From the NCBI GenBank assembly GCA_020404895.1, contig JADBWK010000017.1, positions 1 through 64,000 on the forward strand: a DNA stretch of 64,000 nucleotides, read 5' to 3'. The first letter of the stretch is position 1; each line of letters begins with the position of its first letter. This document shows positions 14,436 to 39,432 of the stretch, piece by piece. Made by a program: the position numbers and the translations under genes. Origin of the DNA: Pseudanabaena sp. M085S1SP2A07QC (GTDB taxonomy: Bacteria > Cyanobacteriota > Cyanobacteriia > Pseudanabaenales > Pseudanabaenaceae). The notes beneath the pieces were generated by a model, which was not told the origin of the DNA, made no database searches, and saw only the letters and a program-made list of their open reading frames with translations.

Positions 14436-17400
14436 ATGTCTACGCCCACATCGACACTCACTCAAACTGAATTAAAATCGGCAATCGTGCTTACCCCCCT
14501 AGTCGTCACAGCCGAAACTACTGTGATGGAGGCGATCGCGAAGATGAGCGAGACAAGGACAATCTGCGCCGCCGACCATACAGGAGACTCAGATAACGTC
14601 CACCTCGAAGCAAGATCAAGTTGTGTATTGGTGATGGAAGGGGAAAAAGTTGTCGGTATTATGACTGAACGCGATGTGGTGCGTCTCAGCACCCAACAGC
14701 GCTCGCTTGACACTGTGTCTGTGCGCGAGGTGATGGTCTCGCCCGTGATTACGTTGCGAGAAGCTGACTTTACCGATCTGTTTTCGGTGGTAAATCTGCT
14801 TCAGCAGCGCCGCATTCGCCATCTGCCTATTTTAGATCGTGATGATCACCTTTTGGGCATGATTACCCACGAGAGCTTGAGGCAACTGGCGCGACCTATC
14901 GATTTGTTGCGCTTGCGTTTAGTGTCAGAGGTGATGACAGCAAATGTAGTCTGTGCTGAGCCATCGACATCGATGCTTGCGATCGCCCAAACTATGGCAG
15001 ATCTTCGAGTGGGTTCAGTCTTGATTGTAGAACCCCAAACCGATCCAGAGGGTAACTCCTTGCAAATCCCCTTGGGCATTATCACTGAACGCGATATTGT
15101 CCAGTTTCAATCTCTAGGGCTGCAATTAGAGCGCGTGGAAGTGCAGATGGTGATGAGTGCACCTGTGTTTGCTGTACACCCAAACGATACCCTGATGTTG
15201 GTACAGCAAATCATGGAGCAGCGATCAATCCGCCGATTGGTTGTGATAGGCGATCAGGGTGAACTATTGGGTGTTGTGACTCAGACCAGTTTGTTAAATG
15301 CACTCAATCCATTGGAACTCTATACCCTATCCAAGATTTTGGAGCAAAAGGTTTCGCAGCTAGAGGCAGAGAAACTAAAACTACTGGAAAATTACAATGC
15401 TGAACTAGAGCATCAAGTCGAGCAACGCACGGCTGACCTCCATGCTAAGTTCGAGCGGGAGCAGTTGATCGCCAAGATTTCAACAGGTATTGCGGCTTTA
15501 TTTTGTTTGCCAGAAATTCTCAATGCCGCAGTCCAAGAACTGAGATCATTCCTTGGTTGCGATCGCATGTTAATTTGGCAGTTTGAGTCTGATGGGAGCG
15601 GTGTGATTGTCTCTGAGTCAGTGGGTGCTGGTTGGCGAGCCTCATTGCATGAGGCAATTGACGATCCCTGTTTTCATGGGGATATTACTCTACGATATAG
15701 CGAAGGTCGCACGATTGCGATCGCCAATATCCATCAGGCTCGTTATCCCAACTGTTATGTTGAGATGTTAGAAGCCTATCAAGTTAAGTCCAATCTTGTC
15801 GTCCCAATCCATGTCTCAGGCAAATTATGGGGATTGTTAATTGGTCATCAGTGTGACGATTATCGAGTATGGGAAGATGCAGATTTAATCTTATTAGATG
15901 AGATTTCAGTCCAGATTGCGATCTCGATCCAACAAGCTGCCGCCCATGAGCAAGTCCAAATCGAACAAGCAGAACGGCAACGCACTGAATCTGCTCTCAG
16001 GGAGAGCGAACAAAGATTTCGCGGCATTTTTGACAACATGTTCCAACTTATCGGTCTGTTGTCACCCGCAGGGATTTTGCTAGAGTCCAATCAAGCCTCG
16101 CTAACGGCGGCTGGGATAGAGATAGAAGATGTCGTGGGGCAACCTTTTTGGGAAACTTATTGGTGGCAAGTTTCACCAGAAACACAACTACAATTAAAGC
16201 AAGCGATCGCCCGTGCTGCCAAGGGTGAATTTATACGCTATGAAGTTGAGGTTTTAGGAATAAATCAAACGATTATTCCGATAGACTTCTCATTACGCCC
16301 CATCTTTAATGAATCTGGACAGATCAAGTTATTGATTCCTGAAGGGAGAGATCTCAGGGAGGCAAAACGGCGTGAGTTGGAACTTAAACAGAGTGAACAA
16401 AGATTTACTTCTCTAGCAACTGCTGCCCCTGTCGGGATTTTTCGCACGGATAATGAAGGCAACTGTCTCTATGTAAATAAGCGTTGGTGTGAGATTGCGG
16501 GACTCAGCGCCGCGGATGCCGCAGGATTTGGCTGGATCAGTGGTATCCATCCTAACGATCGCGAACTAGTCTCAGCAGAATGGAATGATGCTGTGCAAGC
16601 TAACCGACCTTTTTATTTAGAATATCGATTTCTAAATAACCAAGGGCAAATTACTTGGGTTCTTGGGCAGGCGGAGGCTGAACGAGACGAGAGGAGCGAA
16701 ATCATCGGCTATGTCGGCACGATTACAGATATTAGCGATCGTAAACAAGCCGAGGCAGCGCTGCAACAACTCAACCAAGAGCTAGAAGCCAAGGTCGAAG
16801 AACGCACCCAAGCACTTTGGCAAGTGAATAGTTTGCAAAAAGCTATTCTTGATGGTGCTGACTATGCATTTATTTCCACCGATTTAAATGGTTTAATTCT
16901 GACCTTTAACGAAGCTGCGGAAAGAATGTTAGGCTATAGCGCTTCTGAAGTAATTGGTAAACTCACACCAGCAATTATTCACGAACCGCAGGAGGTAATT
17001 AAGAAGGCAGCAATACTCTCATTGGAACTAGAGCAAGATATTCCCATCGGCTTTGAGGTGTTTGTCGCCAAGGCACGTCTAGGTATTGCTAGCGAGGACG
17101 AATGGACTTATATACGCAAAGATGGTTCTCGTTTTCCTGTATTGCTATCTGTTACCGCGCTAAAGGATATCAATCAGCAAATTATTGGATTCCTAGGTAT
17201 CGCCCAAGATATAAGCGATCGCAAACAGACAGAACTAGAACGACAGCAGTTACTTCAGGAATTATCTAATTTTAAGATTGCATTGGATCGGTCTGCCATT
17301 GTGGCTATTACCGATGCTAAAGGCATAATGACCAACGTCAACGATCTCCTCTGCGAGATCTCTGGTTACACGCGCGATGAACTACTTGGTCAAACCCATC

Positions 17401-19859
17401 GCATTATCAACTCTGGCTACCATCCCCCTAGCTTTTTTCAAGATCTTTGGCGAACTATTGCTAGTGGTGAAATTTGGCGCGGTGAAATTTGCAATCGCAC
17501 TAAAAATGGCAGTCTGTATTGGATGGAAAGCACGATAGTTCCTTTTTTGGACGAGCAAGGACGACCATTTCAATATCTCGCCATTCGCTTTGACATTACC
17601 CAACGCAAACAAGCTGAGTTAGCTATTCAAGAAAGTGAAACCAGATTCCGCTATTTGGCGGATCATGCGCCTGTGTTAATTTGGATGTCAGGTTTAGATA
17701 AGCTCTGCTTCCACTTTAATAAAACTTGGCTAGACTTTACAGGGCGCACAATGGAGCAGGAATTAGGAAATGGCTGGGTTGAAGGAGTTCATCCTGACGA
17801 TTTTCATTTCTGTTTAGATGTCTACACGACTTCCTTTGATATGCGTCAATCCTTTGAGATGGAATATCGTCTCAGAAGATTTGATGGCGAGTATCGCTGG
17901 ATGCTAGATACGGGTATACCCCGATTTGATGCCGATGGTGAATTTTTAGGCTATATCGGCACTTGTACTGATATCAGCGATCGCAAAGCTGTCGAACAAG
18001 AGATTTTAGAAAAACAAAAATTTATTCAAAAAATTGCCGAAGCATCGCCGAACATTCTCTATCTCTATGACCTACAAGAGCAATGCAACGTATACAGTAA
18101 TCGTGAAATTGCTTCAGTACTTGGCTACACACCCACTGAGATTCAGTCAATGGGAGGGGCTCTATTCGCGAACTTAATGCATCCCGAAGACCTTGCGAAA
18201 ATATCTGACTACTATCAACAAATCAAGGCGGCACAAGAGGGAGAAATCTTTGAAACTGAATATCGGATGCTTCATGCTAATGGCGAATGGCGATGGCTCT
18301 ATAGTCGAGACACAGTATTTAGTCGAGACGATCTCGGACAGATAAAGTTGACCATTGGAACTGCACAGGATATTAGCGATCGCAAGCAATCAGAGCAACA
18401 ACTCAAACAACAACTCACAGCGATCGAAGCGACTGTGGATGGCATTGCGATCCTCAAAGACGACTGCTATATTTACCTAAACTCGTCACATGTTAGTTTA
18501 TTTGGCTATACTCGCCCAGAAGATCTATTGGGCAAAAATTGGAAAATACTCTATTCCCCAGAAGAGTTTCAGCATTTTGAACGCGAAGTGTTCCCAGTCT
18601 TAGGAGCTAACAGACATTGGGAAGGTGAAGCGATCGCTATCCGTAAAGATGGAACTACATTTATTGAGGGGTTATCGCTCACCTTGACAGAAGATGGCTT
18701 GCTGATTTGTGTATGTCGTGATGTTTCCGCACGCAAAGAACAAGAGGAAGAACTGCTAAACCTCTCTACTCGTCTCACCCTAGCAGCAAAGTCAGCCGCG
18801 ATCGGCATTTGGGACTGGGATGTCGTGCAAAATACCCTCACTTGGGATGACCGCATGTATGAGATGTATGGCATCAAATCCAATCAGTTCACGAGTGTCT
18901 ATGAAGCTTGGTCAAACAGCTTACATCCAGACGATCGTAGCGTCAGTGAATTGGCACTTCAACAAGCCATAAAGGGTGAAAAAGACTTTGACCCCGAATT
19001 TCGAGTAGTGCATCCCGATGGAACAATCCGCTATATCCAAGGCTATGCAATGCCGCAGCACAACGCGCAGGGTGAAGTGCAGCGTATGGTTGGAATTAAC
19101 TTTGACATCACCGATCGCAAACTTGCTGAATCTCAAATCTTGCAAACCACTGCACAGCTTCAAGCTTCCAATCAAGAGCTAGAAGCCTTTGCATATTCTG
19201 TCTCTCATGATTTACGTTCGCCACTGCGGGCGATCGATGGCTATAGCAATGCATTAATAGAGGATTATTATGACAAATTTGATGACGAGGCGCGAGATTA
19301 CTTTGAGCGCATCCGTCGCAATGTTAAATGCATGGGAATGTTAATTGATGACTTACTGCGCCTCTCTCGTGTATCGCGATCAGAAATGCAGTATAGCAAT
19401 GTTAACCTGAGTGCATTGGTTCAAGAACAAGTAAGTGAACTACAAGTATTTGAGCCTGAACGAGAAGTAGAAGTAGTCATCCTTCCGAACATATTCGTAT
19501 CGGCTGATCTCACCTTGATGCGAGTTGTGATCAGTAACTTAGTCCAAAATGCTTGGAAATTCACTAGTCATCACGCAACATCATGCATAGAATTTGGCAT
19601 AATGGAGCAAGAAGATCAGTTAATCTACTTTATCCGTGATGATGGTGCAGGATTTGACATGGCATTTGCTAAAATGCTCTTCGGAGTCTTCCAGCGTCTA
19701 CATAACACCAATGAATTTGCAGGTACTGGGATCGGTCTGGCAAGCGTACAGAGAGCAATCCATCGACATGGTGGAAAAGTCTGGGCTGAGGGATTTGTAG
19801 AAAAAGGTGCGACAATTTATTTTACAGTGCCGCATACAACGTCTAGAGCAGGAGGCTAA
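14436..19859 (+). CDS. CBSx4-GAF(bilin-type)-multi-PAS histidine kinase
   Basis: This 1807-residue soluble kinase starts with four CBS domains (about residues 14-290; VMVSPVITL, VMTANVVCAEP, VMSAPVFAVHP), then a short coiled coil and a GAF domain near 345-495. About eight PAS/PAC units follow (repeated DISDRKQAE-type junctions), and then a phytochrome-type core: HisKA with His1591 in SVSHDLRSPLRAIDGY, N box QNAWKF and G box GTGIGLASVQ. The GAF has a DPCF motif (Cys412) and NCYVEML (Cys440), spaced exactly 28 residues as in DXCF cyanobacteriochromes, so bilin binding is plausible. CBS pairs usually bind adenine nucleotides, which would couple energy status with light. It ends 3 bp before an Rcp1-like regulator, its likely phospho-acceptor. 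No receiver is fused. Confidence 0.92.
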   Translation: MSTPTSTLTQTELKSAIVLTPLVVTAETTVMEAIAKMSETRTICAADHTGDSDNVHLEARSSCVLVMEGEKVVGIMTERDVVRLSTQQRSLDTVSVREVMVSPVITLREADFTDLFSVVNLLQQRRIRHLPILDRDDHLLGMITHESLRQLARPIDLLRLRLVSEVMTANVVCAEPSTSMLAIAQTMADLRVGSVLIVEPQTDPEGNSLQIPLGIITERDIVQFQSLGLQLERVEVQMVMSAPVFAVHPNDTLMLVQQIMEQRSIRRLVVIGDQGELLGVVTQTSLLNALNPLELYTLSKILEQKVSQLEAEKLKLLENYNAELEHQVEQRTADLHAKFEREQLIAKISTGIAALFCLPEILNAAVQELRSFLGCDRMLIWQFESDGSGVIVSESVGAGWRASLHEAIDDPCFHGDITLRYSEGRTIAIANIHQARYPNCYVEMLEAYQVKSNLVVPIHVSGKLWGLLIGHQCDDYRVWEDADLILLDEISVQIAISIQQAAAHEQVQIEQAERQRTESALRESEQRFRGIFDNMFQLIGLLSPAGILLESNQASLTAAGIEIEDVVGQPFWETYWWQVSPETQLQLKQAIARAAKGEFIRYEVEVLGINQTIIPIDFSLRPIFNESGQIKLLIPEGRDLREAKRRELELKQSEQRFTSLATAAPVGIFRTDNEGNCLYVNKRWCEIAGLSAADAAGFGWISGIHPNDRELVSAEWNDAVQANRPFYLEYRFLNNQGQITWVLGQAEAERDERSEIIGYVGTITDISDRKQAEAALQQLNQELEAKVEERTQALWQVNSLQKAILDGADYAFISTDLNGLILTFNEAAERMLGYSASEVIGKLTPAIIHEPQEVIKKAAILSLELEQDIPIGFEVFVAKARLGIASEDEWTYIRKDGSRFPVLLSVTALKDINQQIIGFLGIAQDISDRKQTELERQQLLQELSNFKIALDRSAIVAITDAKGIMTNVNDLLCEISGYTRDELLGQTHRIINSGYHPPSFFQDLWRTIASGEIWRGEICNRTKNGSLYWMESTIVPFLDEQGRPFQYLAIRFDITQRKQAELAIQESETRFRYLADHAPVLIWMSGLDKLCFHFNKTWLDFTGRTMEQELGNGWVEGVHPDDFHFCLDVYTTSFDMRQSFEMEYRLRRFDGEYRWMLDTGIPRFDADGEFLGYIGTCTDISDRKAVEQEILEKQKFIQKIAEASPNILYLYDLQEQCNVYSNREIASVLGYTPTEIQSMGGALFANLMHPEDLAKISDYYQQIKAAQEGEIFETEYRMLHANGEWRWLYSRDTVFSRDDLGQIKLTIGTAQDISDRKQSEQQLKQQLTAIEATVDGIAILKDDCYIYLNSSHVSLFGYTRPEDLLGKNWKILYSPEEFQHFEREVFPVLGANRHWEGEAIAIRKDGTTFIEGLSLTLTEDGLLICVCRDVSARKEQEEELLNLSTRLTLAAKSAAIGIWDWDVVQNTLTWDDRMYEMYGIKSNQFTSVYEAWSNSLHPDDRSVSELALQQAIKGEKDFDPEFRVVHPDGTIRYIQGYAMPQHNAQGEVQRMVGINFDITDRKLAESQILQTTAQLQASNQELEAFAYSVSHDLRSPLRAIDGYSNALIEDYYDKFDDEARDYFERIRRNVKCMGMLIDDLLRLSRVSRSEMQYSNVNLSALVQEQVSELQVFEPEREVEVVILPNIFVSADLTLMRVVISNLVQNAWKFTSHHATSCIEFGIMEQEDQLIYFIRDDGAGFDMAFAKMLFGVFQRLHNTNEFAGTGIGLASVQRAIHRHGGKVWAEGFVEKGATIYFTVPHTTSRAGG

Positions 19860-28349: not shown

Positions 28350-29066
28350 GAACTTGACCGTCTCAATAATACGCGCTCATCTTTGTTTGAAGCTGTCGAA
28401 ACAATTACGAAGACAGGATTGCGGGTAATGGCTGGGTTTATCATTGGGTTTGATGGTGAAAAATCTGGCGCAGGCGATCGCATTGTCCAATGTGTAAAAC
28501 AAACTGGCATTCCTGCCACCACTTTTGCAATGTTGCAAGCGCTGCCTCATACGGCTCTCTCACATCGCCTCGAAAAAGAAGGTCGCTTACGGAGTGGGAA
28601 TGGCAATATCAATCAAACAACCCTGTTGAATTTTGTGCCGACACGCCCTATCGAAGAGATCGCGCGGGAATATGTTGAAGCCTTTTGTGCTATTTATGAG
28701 CCGAATGCATACCTTGATCGGGTTTACAGCTATTACCTGAAGATGGGCGCACCTAGAGTTAAACCACCAGATCGCGCTCCTAGCTAGATCGATCTCAAGG
28801 CTCTGGCGATCGTTATTTGGAGGCAAGGATTTAAACGCAATACTCGTTGGAAGTTCTGGCATCATTTGTTTAGCATGATCAAGAAAAACCCTGCGGTTTG
28901 GGAACAATACCTAACTGTCTGCGCTCACAATGAACATTTTATGGAGTACCGCGATATCGTGCGCAATGAAATCGAAGGACAATTGGCTGTTTATTGGGTA
29001 GAAGAAGAACGTCTGAAAAAACTTCAGGATGTTTCTAAAAAGGAGCTTGATCTTCTTGCTAGCTAA
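28350..29066 (+). pseudogene. C-terminal remnant of a B12-binding radical SAM gene
   Basis: From about 28350 the frame reads TITKTGLRVMAGFIIGFDGE, AGDRIVQ, FAMLQALPHTALSHRL and NFVPTRPIEEIAREYVEAF. It reaches a TAG at about 28785 and continues in the same frame with LAIVIWRQGFKRNTRWKFWH and HFMEYRDIVRNEIEGQLAVY to the stop at 29066. This matches the last 45 percent of the intact gene just downstream. The B12-binding and cysteine-cluster parts are missing. It is a broken tandem paralogue. Confidence 0.88.
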
Positions 29067-29149: not shown

Positions 29150-30778
29150 ATGCGTGTTTTACTCGTCTATCCCTTATTCCCTAAAAGCTTTTGGTCGTTT
29201 GAAAAAACTCTAGAATTAGTTGGTTATAAGGCTCAACTCCCACCTCTTGGCATGGTCACGGTTGCCGCGATCTTGCCCCAAGCTTGGGAATTTAAGCTAG
29301 TCGATCGCAATATTCGTGACATCACCGAAGCCGAGTGGCAATGGGCGGAAGTAGTGATCCTCTCGGCAATGATCGTCCAAAAGGAAGATTTCTTAGCCCA
29401 AATTCAAGAAGCCAAGAAACGCGGTAAATTAGTTGCCGTAGGTGGTCCCTACCCCACCGCCCTACCTGAAGAAGCGAAAGTTTCGGGAGCAGATTTCTTA
29501 ATCCTTGATGAAGGCGAAATTACTTTGCCGATGTTTGTCGAAGCGATCGAAAGAGGTGATCGCTCAGGTATTCTCAGAGCTAACGGTGAAAGACCTGCGG
29601 TAACCGAAACGCCGATCCCTCGTTTCGATCTGCTCGAAATGAACCGCTATGCCGAAATGTCAGTACAGTTTTCTCGCGGTTGTCCTTTCCAATGCGAATT
29701 TTGCGACATTATCGTTCTTTATGGACGCAAGCCCCGTACGAAAACCCCCGCGCAAATTCTTGCCGAATTGCAATATCTCTACGATCTCGGCTGGCGACGA
29801 AGTATCTTTATGGTTGATGACAACTTCATTGGCAATAAGCGCAATGTGAAAGTCATGCTCCAAGAGCTAAAACCTTGGATGAAGGAGCGCAATTATCCCT
29901 TCTCCTTTGCCACAGAAGCATCGGTCGATCTTGCCCAAGATCCTGAAATGATGCAGATGATGGTGGAATGTAATTTTGGTTCCGTCTTCCTCGGTATTGA
30001 AACCCCAGACACTGACAGCCTTGCCCTCACCAAGAAGTTCCAAAACAATCGCGATCCTCTCTCAGAATCAGTGATTAACATCGCCAAAGCAGGCATTCGC
30101 GTCATGGCTGGATTTATCATCGGCTTTGATGGTGAGAAAAAAGGTGCAGGCGATCGCATTGTCCAATTTGTTGAAGAAACCGCCGTTCCTACAGCACTAT
30201 TCAGTATGCTGCAAGCTTTGCCCGATACAGGACTATGGCATCGCTTGAATAAAGAAGGGCGGATGATTAAGCAAAACAGCAATGGACATCAAGCCACTTT
30301 GATGAACTTCGTACCTACCCGTCCGCTCGAAGACATCGCAAATGAATATGTTCATGCCTTCTGGACTCTGTACGATCCCTTGGTTTTTCTCAATCGCACC
30401 TATCGCCATTTCTTGATTTTGGGCGAATCACCCTATAAGAGCCTCAAGCGAGAAAAGACTGATAAAAAGAAAAGAACGGAATGGACAGCCATTCGTGCAT
30501 TGTTAATCTTGGCATGGCGACAAGGTTTTGTCCGCAAAACCCGCTTCCAATTCTGGATTAATCTCTTTGACTTGATGAGGCGTTATCCTAACGTGGTCAT
30601 TAGCTATCTATCAGTTTGTTCTCAAGCCGAACATTTCCTCGAATATCGTTTGATCGTCCGTCAACAAATTGAAGCACAGCTCGCTGACTATCTTGCTAAT
30701 CCTCCTATCGTTCAACCGAAGGTTTTATCAAAGGTAGAACCAGTAGAGCAACTGCAAGATTTGCAAGAAGTTAAATAG
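29150..30778 (+). CDS. B12-binding radical SAM protein (DUF4070 type)
   Basis: A 542-residue enzyme. The N-terminal 130 residues resemble a cobalamin-binding Rossmann domain (MRVLLVYPLFPKSFWSFEKT, PLGMVTVAAILP). The radical SAM core carries the cluster motif CPFQCEFC (Cys-x3-Cys-x2-Cys) and glycine-rich stretches (GWRRSIFMVDDNFIGN). A conserved helical C-terminal region ends the protein (NFVPTRPLEDIANEYVHAFW, AEHFLEYRLIVRQQIEAQL). Proteins of this class include methylases acting on lipids and other unactivated carbons, for example hopanoid methylation; the substrate here is not deducible. A truncated paralogue lies directly upstream. Confidence 0.9.
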   Translation: MRVLLVYPLFPKSFWSFEKTLELVGYKAQLPPLGMVTVAAILPQAWEFKLVDRNIRDITEAEWQWAEVVILSAMIVQKEDFLAQIQEAKKRGKLVAVGGPYPTALPEEAKVSGADFLILDEGEITLPMFVEAIERGDRSGILRANGERPAVTETPIPRFDLLEMNRYAEMSVQFSRGCPFQCEFCDIIVLYGRKPRTKTPAQILAELQYLYDLGWRRSIFMVDDNFIGNKRNVKVMLQELKPWMKERNYPFSFATEASVDLAQDPEMMQMMVECNFGSVFLGIETPDTDSLALTKKFQNNRDPLSESVINIAKAGIRVMAGFIIGFDGEKKGAGDRIVQFVEETAVPTALFSMLQALPDTGLWHRLNKEGRMIKQNSNGHQATLMNFVPTRPLEDIANEYVHAFWTLYDPLVFLNRTYRHFLILGESPYKSLKREKTDKKKRTEWTAIRALLILAWRQGFVRKTRFQFWINLFDLMRRYPNVVISYLSVCSQAEHFLEYRLIVRQQIEAQLADYLANPPIVQPKVLSKVEPVEQLQDLQEVK

Positions 30779-31593: not shown

Positions 31594-34278
31594 TTATAAC
31601 AAGCTAGCCCCATTAAAGGGCTTGGATTTTAAAGGAATATTGATTACACAGGTTGTTCCTCGTCCAACTTCGCTCCTGATGGAAATATTCCCTTGATGTA
31701 AATCCACACATTTTTTGACGACAACTAAACCTAGCCCAGTGCCAGAGATAGTTTTTACATTTTTGCCTCGATGAAAAGGCTCAAACAATTGTTTTTGATC
31801 TTCCATTAAAATACCAATCCCTTGATCTTGAACTTTAATTATGAGGTTGCCTGATTGGAACTGTAGAGAAAGAGAAATATTCCCACCCTGTGGAGAATAT
31901 TTAATGGCGTTAGAAAGTAAATTAGAGAGCATCGATTGCAATAGCTTTTCATCCAGACAAACATGCTGAGACTTTCCTTGACAACTAAAAGTGAGGTGAT
32001 GCAGATTTCCAGCATTGAGTTGCATCTCTTCGACGAAATGACGGCAATATGCCTCTAGTGCTAGGGATTTAGGGTTAAATGCGAGTTTTCCTGTCTCAGC
32101 ACGATTGATTGTCAAAATATCATCCAGTAACTGCACCATATTCCTTACTGAATCTTGAATGCGGTGTAAATTACGCAATCTTTTTTCAGTGTTATCCCAT
32201 TCCTGTTGAGAGTTTTCGAGAACCTGTGCAGCCGCTAGGGCTGTGCTCAATGGCGTGCGAAACTCATGGGATGCCATTGAAAAAAAGCGCGTTTTTAAGG
32301 CACTTAGTTCTTTCTCTCTTTCGAGGGCGAGCCAAATTTCGTCAAGGCGTTTGCGTTCGGTAATGTCACGAGCATTGACCATAACGCGCAAAGTTGCGGC
32401 ACTATCCGCAAAGGGCTGACTAATGGCTTCCAGAATCCGCCAAGAGCCATCTTGATGACGATGCCGAAATTCGAAGGGATTGAGAATTTCGGTTTGATTG
32501 GTATTGGTGAGGCGATCGCGCAATGTCACTTGCGGAAAACTCTGAGAGATAGGCAAATCCTCTGGATGAATAAATGCATTTACATTTGCTCCTACAAGTT
32601 CAGTTACGGCATAACCTAAAACTTTTTCGACAGAAGGACTAACATAGCCAATTGTGCCATCAGGATCGAGGATCATAATAATATCTAAGGCATTTTCGAT
32701 CAGCGATCGGAAACGTTCTTCGCTTTGTCGAAGTGCTTGCTCGACCTGCTTGCGCTCAGTAGTGTCACGCTGCACAGCAATCCAATGGGTGTACCAACCT
32801 TGGGCATTAGCAACGGGCACTAGGCTAAACTCATTCCAAAATTCCGATCCATCTTTACGATAATTAATGACTTCAACCGTGATAGATTGCCATCGAGAGA
32901 GGGCATTACGAACTTTCTGGAGCTGAACCTGATCTGTTTTTGTTCCCTGTAAAATCCTCGGTGTTTGCCCTAATACCTCTTCGGGCTTGTATCCCGTGAT
33001 CCTTGTAAAAGCTTCATTTACATAAAGGATTCTGGGACCTGGAGCATCTATAGGTTCAGCCTCGGTAACGATAATTGCATCATTGGTATTGACTACGACA
33101 GATTGCAATAGCCGCACTTGTTCTGCTTGTCTTTTTTGTTCAGAAATATCAGCAATTACAGCCACAAGTCCGCTGATTTCACCATTTGTATCAGGTAGTG
33201 GCGCGGCAGAAAAAATAATATTAATCTCTTTTCCATCTTTGCGATGACGACATAGCTCCACTCTTGTGTAGGTTTTACCTTGCAGAACACTACCTTGGAT
33301 GGTCGTATAGTCATCAATTGGCTCATCGAGGCTAATCGGACTGGGGCGATCAATAACTTCAGATTCTGTCCAACCAAACATCTGCTCAGCAGCAGGGTTC
33401 CAGATCTTAACATTTCCTTCCAAATCGAGCATCAAGATAGCGCGAGGAGATGCACTAACTAAAGCTTGCAAGGTATCGTTAGTATGACGCAAAGCAATTT
33501 CCGTCTTTTGGCGTTCCGAGATTTCTGCTCGCAGAGAAACATTAACAGTCGCTAGTTCGACTGTACGTTCTTGGACACGCTGTTCTAGTTGAGTATTGAG
33601 ATATTGAAGTTGTTTATAAAGCTCTGATTGTTGAATAGCGATCGCAACTTGAGTAGCAAGTTGCTTCATTAGTTCTACTTCCCAATCTTCCCATTGGCGC
33701 GGGCGATTGCATTGATGAGCAATCAATAATCCCCAGAGATAGGGCTGAGCAGTGTCTGACTCATTCCCTTTACGATTTTCTTGAATAATGGGAACTACTA
33801 ATTTAGCTTGAACTCCAAACTGTTTGACAAAATCTGCAAGACAAGGTTCTACATCAGCCTGCTTAACGTTAGCAATGGAGCGAGCTTTTCCTAAAGAGTA
33901 AGCTTGATGATATTGTTGAGGAAAAACTTCTTCGGGAAATACTTGACCTAAAATACTGAGATAGGGTGGTAAGACTGTTTCATGAATGGCGCTACCAGTA
34001 CCATCATCCCATAGTCGATAAATTAGGACTCGATCAGCTTGCAAAAAAAGTTGGACTTCTCTAACTGTGGTGGCAAGAACTTCGTCAAGATTGAGGGATT
34101 GGCGAATTTGGTGAGCAATTTGGGTAACCAGTCTTTCGCGATCGCTCTGTTGGCGCAATAGCTTTTCTGAACGACGACGACGATTTCCTTCTCTTGTAAA
34201 AAAGAAAAAGCCTAGTAACAGAATTAAAATGCTAAAGAAAACCCCGATTGCATAAAAACTGATCATACTCCCAACCAT
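31594..34278 (-). CDS. ccaS: CcaS-like green/red cyanobacteriochrome histidine kinase
   Basis: 894 residues: one N-terminal membrane helix (about 4-27), a GAF domain (about 50-215), a coiled coil, three PAS domains (about 250-375, 390-510, 515-645), HisKA with His671 in MASHEFRTPL, and HATPase to the end. The GAF has Cys146 at the canonical bilin site followed by Leu147 rather than His, Lys159 thirteen residues later, and Glu116 where most cyanobacteriochromes have the DXCF Asp (the sequence here is EEVF). Glu, Leu and Lys are the residues reported for protochromic green/red sensors of the CcaS/RcaE group. Position, domain order and neighbours (cpcL upstream, ccaR nearby) agree. The second PAS resembles a LOV domain but has GQTPRILQ without the flavin Cys. 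Confidence 0.88.
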   Translation of the reverse strand: MVGSMISFYAIGVFFSILILLLGFFFFTREGNRRRRSEKLLRQQSDRERLVTQIAHQIRQSLNLDEVLATTVREVQLFLQADRVLIYRLWDDGTGSAIHETVLPPYLSILGQVFPEEVFPQQYHQAYSLGKARSIANVKQADVEPCLADFVKQFGVQAKLVVPIIQENRKGNESDTAQPYLWGLLIAHQCNRPRQWEDWEVELMKQLATQVAIAIQQSELYKQLQYLNTQLEQRVQERTVELATVNVSLRAEISERQKTEIALRHTNDTLQALVSASPRAILMLDLEGNVKIWNPAAEQMFGWTESEVIDRPSPISLDEPIDDYTTIQGSVLQGKTYTRVELCRHRKDGKEINIIFSAAPLPDTNGEISGLVAVIADISEQKRQAEQVRLLQSVVVNTNDAIIVTEAEPIDAPGPRILYVNEAFTRITGYKPEEVLGQTPRILQGTKTDQVQLQKVRNALSRWQSITVEVINYRKDGSEFWNEFSLVPVANAQGWYTHWIAVQRDTTERKQVEQALRQSEERFRSLIENALDIIMILDPDGTIGYVSPSVEKVLGYAVTELVGANVNAFIHPEDLPISQSFPQVTLRDRLTNTNQTEILNPFEFRHRHQDGSWRILEAISQPFADSAATLRVMVNARDITERKRLDEIWLALEREKELSALKTRFFSMASHEFRTPLSTALAAAQVLENSQQEWDNTEKRLRNLHRIQDSVRNMVQLLDDILTINRAETGKLAFNPKSLALEAYCRHFVEEMQLNAGNLHHLTFSCQGKSQHVCLDEKLLQSMLSNLLSNAIKYSPQGGNISLSLQFQSGNLIIKVQDQGIGILMEDQKQLFEPFHRGKNVKTISGTGLGLVVVKKCVDLHQGNISIRSEVGRGTTCVINIPLKSKPFNGASLL

Positions 34279-34311: not shown

Positions 34312-34360
34312 AAACAATCTTAAAAAAGCCTTGCTTTGCAAGGCTTTTTTAAGATTGTTT
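34312..34360. repeat. Hairpin between cpcL and ccaS
   Basis: AAACAATCTTAAAAAAGCCT closes on GC-TTT-GC and returns, giving 23-bp arms with poly-A/T flanks. It lies 14 bp after the cpcL stop and 33 bp before the ccaS start, so it could terminate or attenuate linker transcription into the kinase gene. Confidence 0.75.
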
Positions 34361-34374
34361 ATAAATTATAAGGT

Positions 34375-35112
34375 TTACAGCCCAAGGAAAACTCCTAATA
34401 TCAAGAAGCCAACAATACCAACTCCAGCATAGGTAATCCCTGCACCAATTTTGCCGATAATTGCGGGTGGGTTTTTCTGCCATTCCCAACGTAGATAATC
34501 GAGTTTTGCAGCACCTTTATTACCTGTAAAGACTTGTTTCGACAAGCGATCGCGATAGTCTGCTCCATAACGAGCCATGTGAGCAAAAGTGACCTCGCCC
34601 TTGGTCTGCTTAGCCAAGATACGGCGACGTTGATAGGGAACAATACTATCGCCAAAGTTATCGAGATATTCTTCGCTATTGAGCAACTCATCAACAAAAG
34701 CTTGAATACCTTTCGTCGCAATTACAATTGACCATGCAATCTTTTCGCGATCGCTATAGACATTACGACCAAGAATTCGCTGGATACAAATCTCGGCAAA
34801 GCGATAGTTGTTATTACTATCAAAGGTCAGTCTTCTGAAGGAATCAGAGAGGACTAAGCCACGAATAAATCCTCTAACCGTAATTTGTCCTGCTCGCAAC
34901 TGAGACTCTAGATTTACTTGGCGATGGCTTTCTAGCATCTGTTGTTCGTTACAGATTTGACGATAGGCAGCTTTGATCAATAGATCTAGCTCAGAGCCAG
35001 ATAGTAAATTGTCAGTACTATAAATCCGAGGTTGCTCATCACCAGCGACTTCAAAACCAGCCACGCGCTGATTTTGAGATGCAGGCTTGTATTCTAATAA
35101 TGGAAGTGACAT
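34375..35112 (-). CDS. cpcL: Rod-core linker CpcL (CpcG2), membrane-anchored
   Basis: A 245-residue phycobilisome linker. The linker domain occupies about residues 30-180 ([59 protein letters not shown]). The last 25 residues are hydrophobic ([18 protein letters not shown]), the anchor that separates CpcL from CpcG1. In Synechocystis and Nostoc, CpcL organises rod-only phycobilisomes linked to photosystem I and is induced by green light through CcaS-CcaR. An AGGAG lies 8 bp upstream of the ATG. It lies between the two-domain linker gene and ccaS in the same orientation. Confidence 0.93.
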
Positions 35113-35183: not shown

Positions 35184-36953
35184 TTAACTATTGAAAACGC
35201 GGCTGCGCCATTTGTTCAATCGGGCATCACCGATCGCGGCATATCTCCGCGCATCGGCAATTTGAGCTTGCAGGTTCGCAATCTGTTCAATCTGATTGTC
35301 TGACTGTTGTAATAAAGAGTCAGAAGCATCTCCTTGAACCGAGACAACCGAGGGTTGCCAAGAATTTTTAAGATAAGATGCACCAATAGATGCCGATGGA
35401 CGAAGATCGGCTAGTTGTTTTTGTAAACTTTCGATGATTAGATCTTGATCGAGCAGAGTTTGTCGCAATGCCTGCTCGGCGGCAAAGTTTGCTGATGTCG
35501 CCCAAGGTTGAATTTGCCCGATACCTGATGTTTTTGGCTTAAAGACCTCAGCAAGGATGGCAGCAGTATCGCTGACTTTGAGCTTACCGTAGGGCGAATT
35601 CTGAACGATCGCTCTGGTCAGTTGGGGTTTGTTATTGGTGGCGAGATTTTTATCGCTGCTGGATGCACTTCGCAATAATTGGAACATATTGGTAAATTCC
35701 AACATTGATTGTCCATTCTGAGTGCTGAGCCCTCGGTAATAGGGAACGATCGCTTCACCAAAAGCAGTTTGATACTCATCGCTATCAATATGTGTATCAA
35801 TGTCTGTTTCAAACCCAGAATTGTCCAGAACACTGCTGTGATAGCGCATTTCATCGAAATTGTCTGGCGCACGTCCAAGCAGATGCTTAAAGTTCAACTC
35901 GATCGCCCGATAACGATAGCAGCTATCAAAGAAGCGAGAGCGATACAAGTCCGATTTTGCCAATTGGCGCACAAATTCGCGCACACTCAGTTCACCGCGC
36001 TTAAACTGAGACTCGGCAACAATTAGGCGCTCGCTCTCCATCACATGAGCATTGCCAAATACCTGACGATAAACTGCACGAATCACAACTTCTAAGTCAG
36101 CATCCGAGGAACCAACACAGAATTCAATAGGGGCTGTTTCTTTGAATGGTCGGTATGCTTCATAAAATTGTAGCTGACGTTCTGGTTCGTTAGCCGACTT
36201 GGGCGCAACTGGTTTGAAAGATAGATCGGGAGATCCAGTTCTTAATCCAAAAACCTTGGATAAGAGTTGATTGACATCAGTAGCTGCCGCAGGACGTTGC
36301 CATTGCGAAGGTGCGCCTTTGAGCTGTGCGATCGAGCTGGGGCGATTTCGCAAAATATAACTATTCAGGCGAGAGCGGTTTTGATGTTTCGGATCTTTAT
36401 CGCTGCTAGCCGATCCGCGCAAAAGCTGAAACATGTGTGTAAAACCGACCATTTTCTTACCTGTCTGGGTTTTATGCCCACGATAGTAAGGGACAGTATC
36501 TTCGCCAAAAGCATCCTGATATTCATCGCTATCGATGTAATCATTAATTTCCATCTCGAACCCGCCGTGATCGAGTAACTGTGCATGATCAGCCATCTCT
36601 TCCGCACTATCAGGAGCGCGACCGAGCAAATGTTTGAAGTTAAGTTCAATCGATCGCATTCTTGGACATGGCTCAAAAAACCTAACGCGGTACTGTTCTG
36701 AAAGAGCGATCTGACGAACAAATTCACGCACAGATATATCAGACTGTTTAAGCTGAGATTCGGCGACAGTCAACCGTTCGCTCTCCATCACATGAGCATT
36801 ACCAAGTACTTGACGATAGGCAGCGCGAATGACTAGATCGACATCTGCTTCAGAATGATTTTGCCAAAGTTGAATCGGTGCTGTTTCATCGAATCGGCTA
36901 ACCCCAAGGTTTGCCTCTGGATTAACCAGCGGATTGATAAAAGTACTGACCAT
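35184..36953 (-). CDS. Rod linker with two tandem linker domains
   Basis: A 589-residue protein with two complete phycobilisome linker domains, at about residues 24-195 and 275-440. Both carry AYRQVxGNAHVMESERL-type cores, SVREFVRQ, SIELNFKHLLGRAPD or AIELNFKHLLGRAPD, and IDSDEYQxAFGE followed by VPYYRG. The two halves are near copies, so the gene arose by internal duplication. The C-terminal 120 residues contain a predicted coiled coil (LLDQDLIIESLQKQLADLRP) and no CpcD domain. Ordinary rod linkers have one domain; multi-domain rod linkers are known from Gloeobacter. It would presumably join several hexamers in one rod. It sits in the putative ccaR-controlled operon between cpeR and cpcL. 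Confidence 0.88.
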   Translation of the reverse strand: MVSTFINPLVNPEANLGVSRFDETAPIQLWQNHSEADVDLVIRAAYRQVLGNAHVMESERLTVAESQLKQSDISVREFVRQIALSEQYRVRFFEPCPRMRSIELNFKHLLGRAPDSAEEMADHAQLLDHGGFEMEINDYIDSDEYQDAFGEDTVPYYRGHKTQTGKKMVGFTHMFQLLRGSASSDKDPKHQNRSRLNSYILRNRPSSIAQLKGAPSQWQRPAAATDVNQLLSKVFGLRTGSPDLSFKPVAPKSANEPERQLQFYEAYRPFKETAPIEFCVGSSDADLEVVIRAVYRQVFGNAHVMESERLIVAESQFKRGELSVREFVRQLAKSDLYRSRFFDSCYRYRAIELNFKHLLGRAPDNFDEMRYHSSVLDNSGFETDIDTHIDSDEYQTAFGEAIVPYYRGLSTQNGQSMLEFTNMFQLLRSASSSDKNLATNNKPQLTRAIVQNSPYGKLKVSDTAAILAEVFKPKTSGIGQIQPWATSANFAAEQALRQTLLDQDLIIESLQKQLADLRPSASIGASYLKNSWQPSVVSVQGDASDSLLQQSDNQIEQIANLQAQIADARRYAAIGDARLNKWRSRVFNS

Positions 36954-37041: not shown

Positions 37042-37401
37042 TTAAGCTTGATCGTCAAATCTTGTTTTAAAACTGCCGTATTTAATCCAATATCGTTTTA
37101 AATCATGGTGGGGAGTATGCAAACTTGCCTTGGCTCGGTGTAAAACTACTTGCCGATGATCGCCAATCCAAACCTTACCGATCGCATCTATAGATATAAC
37201 AGATCCGCCTAAAGCCCGAATCGATGTAGTGAATCTCTCAAGAGCCCCGTAATCAACTGTTTCAAAAACAAAAAAGTTTCCTGAACAAATGACATGACGA
37301 CTGCGAATCCAAGATTGCACTTTCTTTTCAGCGATGGGTGGTAGCATTCCAACGGGGGGAGTAGCGATCGCAAGACTCTGATCGTTCAGGATCTGCAACA
37401 T
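37042..37401 (-). CDS. cpeR: CpeR-like phycoerythrin gene activator
   Basis: A 119-residue soluble protein with the core LPPIAEKKVQSWIRSRHVIC, SGNFFVFETVDYGALERFTT, SIRALGGSVISID, IGKVWIGDHRQVVLHRAKAS and HHDLKRYWIKYGSF. From memory this matches the CpeR family, needed for expression of phycoerythrin genes. The position, behind a cpeC-like gene and beside cpcL, mirrors the Nostoc punctiforme cpeC-cpcG2-cpeR1 operon. Met19 is a possible internal start. A CpcD-like linker fragment was considered because of the LGGSVISI stretch, but the rest does not fit. No phycoerythrin structural genes are in the window. Confidence 0.75.
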   Translation of the reverse strand: MLQILNDQSLAIATPPVGMLPPIAEKKVQSWIRSRHVICSGNFFVFETVDYGALERFTTSIRALGGSVISIDAIGKVWIGDHRQVVLHRAKASLHTPHHDLKRYWIKYGSFKTRFDDQA

Positions 37402-37469: not shown

Positions 37470-37516
37470 GATTTGTGATTAAAAGTATTGCTTCGCAATA
37501 CTTTTAATCACAAATC
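37470..37516. repeat. Hairpin between the cpeC-like and cpeR-like genes
   Basis: GATTTGTGATTAAAAGTATT then GC-TTC-GC and the perfect complement: 22-bp arms. It lies 44 bp after the cpeC-like stop and may attenuate or stabilise the message. Confidence 0.75.
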
Positions 37517-37560: not shown

Positions 37561-38325
37561 TTAAACGACCTCAGTGATGCTGACAATTTTGCCAGAAGTA
37601 CGATTAATCCGTTGGATCTGGGAAGTCATATTGTCCCCTGCAACCAAATAGGTGCTGGTGCTGACACGACGGCGAGTGTCGAACTTAGAACCCTGAACCA
37701 CAATTTTGAATTTCTTTTTGTTGGCTTCGCCCGAACCACCGAGATCGATGCTGGCTGGTGCAATTTTGTTGCTGCTGTTGGTGGCAACTTCAAAAACCAA
37801 CTGTGAAGACTTGACCGCACTGCTAATTTGCGAATCACCGCGATTAAGCGCATACATGCGGTTAAATGTCACTTGGCTTTGTCCTGCTTGGGTATTGCTG
37901 CGACTGAAAGGAACCACATTTTCACCAAAAGCCGTTTGGTATTCGTCACTATCAATGTACGAATCAATTTCGGCCTCGTAGCCCTCGGTTACGCAACGCA
38001 CAATATGCTCAGAAATCTCGGCTTGAGACTGAGGAGGACGACCGAGGAAATGCATGAAGTTCAATTCCACAAAGCGGTAAGGAGCGCATGAGGTAAAGTA
38101 GCGATCTCGATAAAATTCAGATTTACCAATTGCGCGGACAAATTCACGTATCGATAGACTGCGATCGCCTAACTGCGACTCAGCTTTGACAAAGCGCTCG
38201 CTTTCCATCACATGGGGATTGCCTAATACCTGCTTATAAACTGCCCGAATCACAGTCTGAACATCATCGGCGGAACTCGTTTGCCATAGCTCTACCGCAC
38301 TAGCATTGATGACGATACTACCCAT
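37561..38325 (-). CDS. cpeC: Phycobilisome rod linker, CpeC-like
   Basis: A 254-residue linker. The linker domain spans residues about 8-150 (VELWQTSSADDVQTVIRAVY, NPHVMESERFVKAESQ, RFVELNFMHFLGRPPQSQAE, IDSDEYQTAFGE). A C-terminal CpcD-like domain follows (KFKIVVQGSKFDTRRRVSTS, then MTSQIQRINRTSGKIVSI). One linker domain plus CpcD is the layout of CpcC, CpeC and PecC rod linkers. The operon context (cpeR, cpcL, ccaSR) favours the phycoerythrin linker CpeC, but the sequence alone does not separate the three. It has a GGAGA 9 bp before the ATG and is the first gene of the leftward run, facing the CcaR box. Confidence 0.85.
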   Translation of the reverse strand: MGSIVINASAVELWQTSSADDVQTVIRAVYKQVLGNPHVMESERFVKAESQLGDRSLSIREFVRAIGKSEFYRDRYFTSCAPYRFVELNFMHFLGRPPQSQAEISEHIVRCVTEGYEAEIDSYIDSDEYQTAFGENVVPFSRSNTQAGQSQVTFNRMYALNRGDSQISSAVKSSQLVFEVATNSSNKIAPASIDLGGSGEANKKKFKIVVQGSKFDTRRRVSTSTYLVAGDNMTSQIQRINRTSGKIVSITEVV

Positions 38326-38503: not shown

Positions 38504-38525
38504 GAATTGTAAAGAAAACGGAAAG
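38504..38525 (-). promoter_or_regulatory. Putative CcaR binding box (G-box-like direct repeat)
   Basis: On the minus strand the sequence CTTTCCGTTTT is followed directly by CTTTACAATTC: two 11-bp units sharing CTTTnC, close to the CTTTnCnATTT direct repeats that I recall for CcaR targets. It lies about 180 bp upstream of the cpeC-like start and about 220 bp from the ccaR start. A later stretch on the minus strand (TATGGGATTATCT, about 25-35 bp downstream of the box) could hold a -10 element. This is a motif match from memory, not a tested site. Confidence 0.6.
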
Positions 38526-38613: not shown

Positions 38614-38670
38614 CCAAAACCCAAGAAATAATAGCGAAGCAAAGCACCGCAATTATTTCTTGGGTTTTGG
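38614..38670. repeat. Palindrome between the CcaR box and ccaR
   Basis: CCAAAACCCAAGAAATAAT and ATTATTTCTTGGGTTTTGG are perfect arms around an irregular loop containing GCGAAGC. It lies 72 bp upstream of the ccaR start, so it may insulate the divergent promoters or form a leader hairpin. Confidence 0.7.
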
Positions 38671-38742: not shown

Positions 38743-39432
38743 ATGAGGATTCTTCTAGTTGAAGATGATATCCGCCTTGCCGAAACTTTGGCTGAAGCGC
38801 TAACCGATGAGCGCTATGTTGTAGATATTGCCACTGATGGTGAAACAGGTTGGCATCAAGCTCAGTCCCTAGATTACGATCTGATGCTTTTGGATTTAAT
38901 GCTGCCAGAACTAGATGGTATTAGTCTCTGTCATCGGTTGCGATCGCATGGTTACAGCTTACCAATTTTGATGCTCACTGCTTGCGACACGATCGATCAC
39001 GAAATTAACGGTTTAGATGTAGGAGCCGATGATTATATTGTCAAACCCGTTGATTTACAAAAGCTATTTGCAAGGATTCGCGCCCTATTACGTCGTGGTA
39101 GTCAAATCGCATCGCCAATCTTAGAGTGGGGTGACTTATATCTCAATCCAAGTACTTGCGAAGTTGGCTATGGTGAAAATCCTATCCATTTAACGCCCAA
39201 GGAATATGCTCTTTTAGAATTACTACTTCGGAATGGAAGACGAGTCTTGAGCCGTAGTGTCATGATCGAGCATGTGTGGTCGTTGGAATCACCTCCAGAG
39301 GAGCATACTGTGAAGGTGCATATTCGAGGTTTGCGCCAAAAGATGAAAGCCGTAGGAGCTAACGAAGATTTGATCGAGACAGTTCATAGTATGGGCTATC
39401 GGCTAAATCGGAATTACAGTAAACTTCGCTAA
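38743..39432 (+). CDS. ccaR: OmpR-family response regulator CcaR
   Basis: A 229-residue regulator from ATG 38743; the TTG at 38713 is unlikely. The receiver has acceptor Asp51 (LMLLDLMLPELDG), a switch Thr and KPVDLQKLFARIRALLRRG. The winged helix reads LTPKEYALLELLLRNGRRVL, SLESPPEEHTVKVHIRGLRQ and ETVHSMGYRLN. The sequence is strikingly like Synechocystis CcaR as I remember it, including LESPPEE-TVKVH. It would be phosphorylated by CcaS under green light and activate the divergent linker operon. Confidence 0.9.
   Translation: MRILLVEDDIRLAETLAEALTDERYVVDIATDGETGWHQAQSLDYDLMLLDLMLPELDGISLCHRLRSHGYSLPILMLTACDTIDHEINGLDVGADDYIVKPVDLQKLFARIRALLRRGSQIASPILEWGDLYLNPSTCEVGYGENPIHLTPKEYALLELLLRNGRRVLSRSVMIEHVWSLESPPEEHTVKVHIRGLRQKMKAVGANEDLIETVHSMGYRLNRNYSKLR

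Follow-up and report, generated by a model that had tools for sequence, protein, structure and literature searches.

Sensor kinases of the CcaS kind bind phycocyanobilin (PCB) covalently, run a photocycle of about 535/672 nm and, when activated by green light, bring about phosphorylation of the response regulator CcaR; in Nostoc punctiforme, a phycoerythrin linker and cpeR are also present in the CcaS regulon. The published CcaR-binding site reads CTTTCCGATTTCTTTACGATTT, and CcaS is green-activated, while RcaC, the regulator of the RcaE pathway, activates cpc2 and pcyA through direct sites in red light and represses a green-light operon through an inverted one (PMC8256508). In Geminocystis NIES-3708 and NIES-3709, which display Type 2 CA, CcaS-CcaR occurs with a light-regulated cpeC/E-cpeR operon (PMC4424290, PMC4417701). 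Among 65 genomes, three Calothrix strains have been reported earlier to have both CcaS and RcaE (PMC9415938), and Pseudanabaena SR411 has been published as a CA3 strain on the basis of RcaE/F/C, in a paper in which the term CcaS is absent (PMC11377992).

Here, we analysed a window of 64,000 nucleotides from Pseudanabaena sp. M085S1SP2A07QC, which encodes a sensor kinase at positions 31594..34278 (minus strand). Judged by its sequence, the sensor is an ordinary, well-supported new CcaS within a known sensor family, and we consider it highly probable that it is a CcaS orthologue which drives a green-light linker regulon through CcaR and the G-box. Of more interest beyond this locus are two green/red systems in parallel and a CcaS regulon that has been trimmed within a single genus.

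The ccaS gene cluster and its variation in Pseudanabaena

The ccaS gene, assigned by domain search and tree clade, is an intact reading frame for an 894-aa sensor kinase with the domain order TM-GAF-PAS-PAS-PAS-HisKA-HATPase_c (Pfam domains; the N-terminal TM helix from sequence), so that the N-terminal TM, GAF, PAS and histidine kinase parts of CcaS are all present; the H-box, SHEFRTPL, lies at residue 670 in the HisKA domain. The second PAS domain (residues 388-520, about 32719-33117, minus strand) is LOV-like and matches the structure of a LOV fusion at an E value of about 1e-28. A LOV function was rejected, as Pro replaces the flavin-adduct Cys (GQTPRILQG at residue 437 versus GxNCRFLQ).

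Just upstream of ccaS and on the same strand lies cpcL (34375..35112), which encodes a rod-membrane linker with a PF00427 domain and a hydrophobic C-terminal helix. It is preceded by genes for a 589-aa CpeC-like tandem rod linker that has two PF00427 domains and lacks a CpcD domain (35184..36953), for a homologue of the phycoerythrin gene activator CpeR (37042..37401), and for a CpeD-like phycoerythrin rod linker with PF00427 and CpcD domains (37561..38325), all on the minus strand. The cpeR product matched no Pfam or NCBIfam model but has homologues which end cpeC-type operons; both the CpeR and the CpeD names rest on RcaE-bearing loci with a full cpeC operon (e.g. L105), where the order is cpeC, cpeD, cpeE, cpeR. 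Full-length relatives of the tandem linker were found only in Pseudanabaena sp. UWO311 and in an uncultured Synechococcales contig (L056) in a phylum survey in which three candidates per genome were scored. Divergent from these genes is ccaR (38743..39432, plus strand), encoding an OmpR-type response regulator with receiver and Trans_reg_C domains, whose product matches the response regulators at other CcaS loci at 70-98%. The five minus-strand genes are predicted to form an operon, CpeD-like, cpeR, tandem linker, cpcL and ccaS, which would represent a CA2-type regulon plus CpcL. Perfect hairpins with arms of about 20 bp and GCAAAGC/GCGAAGC tips are located between cpcL and ccaS (34315-34357) and between the CpeD-like gene and cpeR (37472-37514). 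They are terminator-like, being either terminators or dispersed palindromes, and because they lie inside the cluster the five genes may not share one transcript.

A predicted CcaR G-box, CTTTCCGTTTTCTTTACAATTC, is located at 38504-38525 (minus strand), where it points toward the operon and precedes cpcL and the other phycobilisome linker genes; it matches the published site at 19 of 22 bases and departs from it at three. The G-box adjoins ccaR in 31 of the 32 CcaS loci in which ccaR was located, and ccaR, cpcL and the G-box are kept across the CcaS clade. Domains, residues, clade, neighbours, DNA sites and co-occurrence can all be read from the sequence. With up to three mismatches allowed, a search of the genome gave the G-box of the window plus a doubtful second site, against four sites in the reversed control; no convincing further CcaR target was found in the genome, the other site having three mismatches and being no better than the reversed control. 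Upstream of ccaR, at 38614-38670, there is also a perfect 19-bp inverted repeat with a 19-base spacer. Compared with the window, Pseudanabaena UWO311 (L047) carries this spacer in the opposite orientation, which looks like a flip of the hairpin loop.

Among 26 Pseudanabaena genomes, CcaS was identified in 12, RcaE in 15 and both in 10, a co-occurrence with a one-sided hypergeometric P of 0.019 if the kinship of the genomes is ignored. In the genus, 11 CcaS clusters were readable, and their comparison revealed four forms of the G-box operon. The source genome (G000) and UWO311 carry the CpeD-like gene, cpeR, tandem linker, cpcL and ccaS; G003 has the CpeD-like gene, cpeR, cpcL and ccaS; G012, G020 and G014 have a single linker, cpcL and ccaS; and G001, G005, G008, G010 and G019 have cpcL and ccaS alone. 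The single linker is chimeric: in the tandem linker, the counterpart of its residues 1 to about 210 is the first repeat, and that of the remainder is the second repeat and tail, as would be expected from recombination between the two repeats. In G014, the opening codons of the CpeD-like gene run directly into the final 26 codons of cpeR, and this remnant shows that the strain lost the cpeD-cpeR pair by deletion.

The alternative that has to be taken most seriously, even though we regard it as unlikely, is that the photosensor works while its G-box regulon is shrinking in the genus, so that any effect on phycoerythrin would be small beside that of RcaE. The five of 11 readable clusters that are reduced to cpcL-ccaS, the deletion scar in G014 and the presence of RcaE in 10 of the 12 CcaS carriers all speak for such a loss; however, the source strain and UWO311 retain every gene of the cluster intact, at 92-99% identity between the two. 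For the strain analysed here, we prefer a CcaS orthologue which would still drive the full linker set.

Protochromic residues of the GAF domain

The bilin-binding GAF domain spans residues 63-215 (33634..34092, minus strand), as delimited by Pfam, an AlphaFold2 model and the match to RcaE structure 8k9o. The model (mean pLDDT 85.7, pTM 0.84) superimposes on the Pg state of RcaE (8k9o) with a Z score of 23.8 and 58% identity over 150 residues, and it also resembles 6oap and 6ob8, green-light states of a dual sensor kinase; by sequence, the best solved relatives of the kinase are the RcaE GAF structures 8k9o and 7ckv, at 51-58% identity. From residue 62 onward, kinase and RcaE align without gaps across FP(E/Q)EVFP, and RcaE has a two-residue insertion ahead of the Cys. 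RcaE numbering was taken from PDB entry 8k9o, in which residue 21 of our model (protein residue 59) corresponds to 159 and model residue 182 to 317. On this basis, Glu117 (33928-33930) equals RcaE Glu217, Cys146 (33841-33843), the predicted bilin attachment site, equals residue 248, Leu147 (33838-33840) equals Leu249 and Lys159 (33802-33804) equals Lys261, with all codons on the minus strand. The protochromic triad of RcaE is reportedly Glu217/Leu249/Lys261 (attributed to Hirose 2013 and Nagae 2021), in agreement with the PDB numbering as checked here, and these numbers land on Glu, Leu and Lys only if Glu117 is chosen. A Leu adjoining the bilin Cys is described for CcaS and RcaE (PMC9415938), and the kinase shows the residue set of CcaS, Cys146 followed by Leu147, together with Glu117 and Lys159.

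A first-pass annotation of this DNA had placed Cys146-Leu147 at the bilin site and Lys159 in the triad, and the confirmed codons and the alignment with RcaE 248-249 and Lys261 bear out both placements. It had also named Glu116, standing where the DXCF Asp normally stands, as the Glu of the triad. The residue exists (33931-33933, minus strand) and its assignment to the DXCF-Asp column is right, which is what speaks for a triad of Glu116, Leu147 and Lys159; yet the alignment with RcaE proposed as a check, in which Cys146, Leu147 and Lys159 match, pairs F-P-E116-E117-V-F-P with F-P-Q216-E217-V-F-P, so that the triad Glu is one residue further on. RcaE, a structurally solved protochromic sensor, thus has Gln at this position, and column 116 varies among the relatives (E, Q, P, A or V) while the other residues are kept. 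Column 117, in contrast, is Glu in 37/37 CcaS and 40/40 RcaE-side relatives; across these 77, columns 117, 146 and 159 are invariant and column 147 nearly so. As one of the two words used to search for relatives (FPxEVFP) included Glu117, the count was repeated on the 35 relatives found without that word, and all 35 carry Glu at column 117. The conservation of Glu117 is far beyond chance, a triad built on Glu116 is very improbable, and the target for mutagenesis is settled as Glu117.

Slightly less probable still is a two-Cys, DXCF-like blue/green GAF domain, for which the broadly shared fold of cyanobacteriochrome GAF domains and the TePixJ structures among the structural matches could be cited. 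Val118 (33925-33927, minus strand) occupies the second-Cys column, as the first-pass annotation had noted correctly, and the only further Cys in residues 1-300, Cys190, is one that RcaE also keeps invariantly. The motif Cys of the DXCF-type kinases encoded by this genome falls into column 118 and their Asp, where present, into column 116; other kinases in the window show the DXCF Cys in the same alignment, which is therefore able to discriminate two-Cys GAF domains. The protochromic green/red photocycle which had been predicted in place of a two-Cys blue/green cycle is well supported by sequence comparison, through the conservation of the triad, the lack of a DXCF Cys and the RcaE Pg/Pr structures, and additionally through the CcaS clade and the neighbouring CcaR, G-box and cpcL.

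Elsewhere in the window, two more proteins with cyanobacteriochrome GAF domains are encoded at 182-3178 (minus strand) and 14436-19859 (plus strand). Their second Cys lies in DEHCF and DDPCF, respectively, and they probably have two-Cys photocycles.

A second green/red system in the same genome

A maximum-likelihood tree built from 88 GAF domains places that of the window kinase in a 38-member CcaS clade (support 100/99), apart from another clade formed by RcaE and its orthologues. Leptolyngbya PCC 6406 and Calothrix brevissima NIES-22, both CcaS strains in the literature, are members of the CcaS clade. The nearest named genome is that of Pseudanabaena sp. UWO311, with a GAF domain of 100% identity. 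At a threshold of E <= 1e-62, which no RcaE-type match reached within Pseudanabaena, a CcaS-like GAF domain occurs in 22 of 386 cyanobacterial genomes. The window also holds a DUF4070 radical SAM gene fragment (28383-28787) just upstream of an intact copy (29150-30778); in UWO311, the neighbouring copy is intact (529 aa).

That the window kinase is itself the RcaE-type (CA3) sensor of the organism, as the same triad and an identity of about 52% to the RcaE GAF domain might suggest, is contradicted by the tree, which places it outside the RcaE clade, and by its gene context of ccaR, cpcL and G-box, and is highly improbable given a separate RcaE on C120 and RcaF-RcaC on C101. This RcaE orthologue matches the RcaE GAF domain at 76% and lies inside the RcaE clade, and with RcaF and RcaC the set RcaE-RcaF-RcaC is complete. 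A third protein with the protochromic Glu, Cys-Leu and Lys (1218 aa; G000 contig C60:26178-29834, L036:6179-9835) is encoded among response-regulator genes and belongs neither to CcaS nor to RcaE in the tree, where it groups with proteins of Microcoleus and Argonema.

Sites for RcaC were scored with the motif TTGCACAN4TTGCACA, which we take to be the L-box. Five L-box-like sites with one mismatch were found in the genome, three of which precede cpcBA, pcyA and, in inverted orientation and at a distance of about 220 bases, the cpeC-type operon on C117; this arrangement matches the pattern described for RcaC. With up to two mismatches 34 sites were found versus 8 in the control, so that single sites are leads rather than proof. 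The genome of SR411 likewise contains a CcaS-CcaR-cpcL cluster (L085) besides RcaE (L113). We lean, with some caution, towards two protochromic systems that would run in parallel in Pseudanabaena with non-overlapping regulons and an accessory linker set that would be a swappable module, trimmed by deletion from a CA2-like to a CA1-like form in the course of the genus. As part of this moderately favoured reading, the targets reached by RcaEFC via L-boxes would be phycocyanin, pcyA and the cpeC operon, and those reached by CcaSR via one G-box would be the CpeD-like linker, CpeR, tandem linker and CpcL. CA1-like, CA2-like and CA3 parts coexist in Pseudanabaena and differ among close relatives, which raises the question of what a second green/red sensor adds to a cell already equipped with one.

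Proposed working and comparison with known systems

CpeA, CpeB and PcyA are encoded in the genome, with NCBIfam cut-offs passed, so that phycoerythrin and PCB are available. The GAF domain would bind phycocyanobilin at Cys146, and C15 Z/E isomerisation would toggle green- and red-absorbing forms, with Glu117, Leu147 and Lys159 controlling protonation and deprotonation of the bilin. By analogy to Synechocystis CcaS, green light would activate the kinase and lead to phosphorylation of CcaR, which would then bind the G-box at 38504-38525 and turn on the CpeD-like linker, CpeR, the tandem CpeC-like linker and CpcL; this linker set would give longer phycoerythrin rods and membrane CpcL rods. PCB attachment, green/red absorption, proton transfer, the sign of the response, the effect on the phycobilisome and co-transcription are what we infer from membership of the family and from the gene order.

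The closest likeness is to the CcaS/CcaR systems (CA1/CA2) of Synechocystis PCC 6803, N. punctiforme and Leptolyngbya PCC 6406, with which the locus shares the TM-GAF-PAS-HK architecture, the triad, CcaR, the G-box and cpcL as a target. It differs from these in the three PAS domains of the kinase, in a regulon to which the CpeD-like and tandem CpeC-like linkers are added and in three of the 22 G-box bases. The operon of Geminocystis lacks cpcL, whereas that of the window includes both cpcL and the tandem linker. With Fremyella diplosiphon RcaE (CA3; 7ckv, 8k9o), the kinase has the GAF fold, Cys-Leu, Glu and Lys in common and, as predicted here, the protochromic cycle; in contrast, RcaE belongs to a separate clade and acts through RcaF/RcaC and L-boxes, and the source genome possesses an RcaE of its own.
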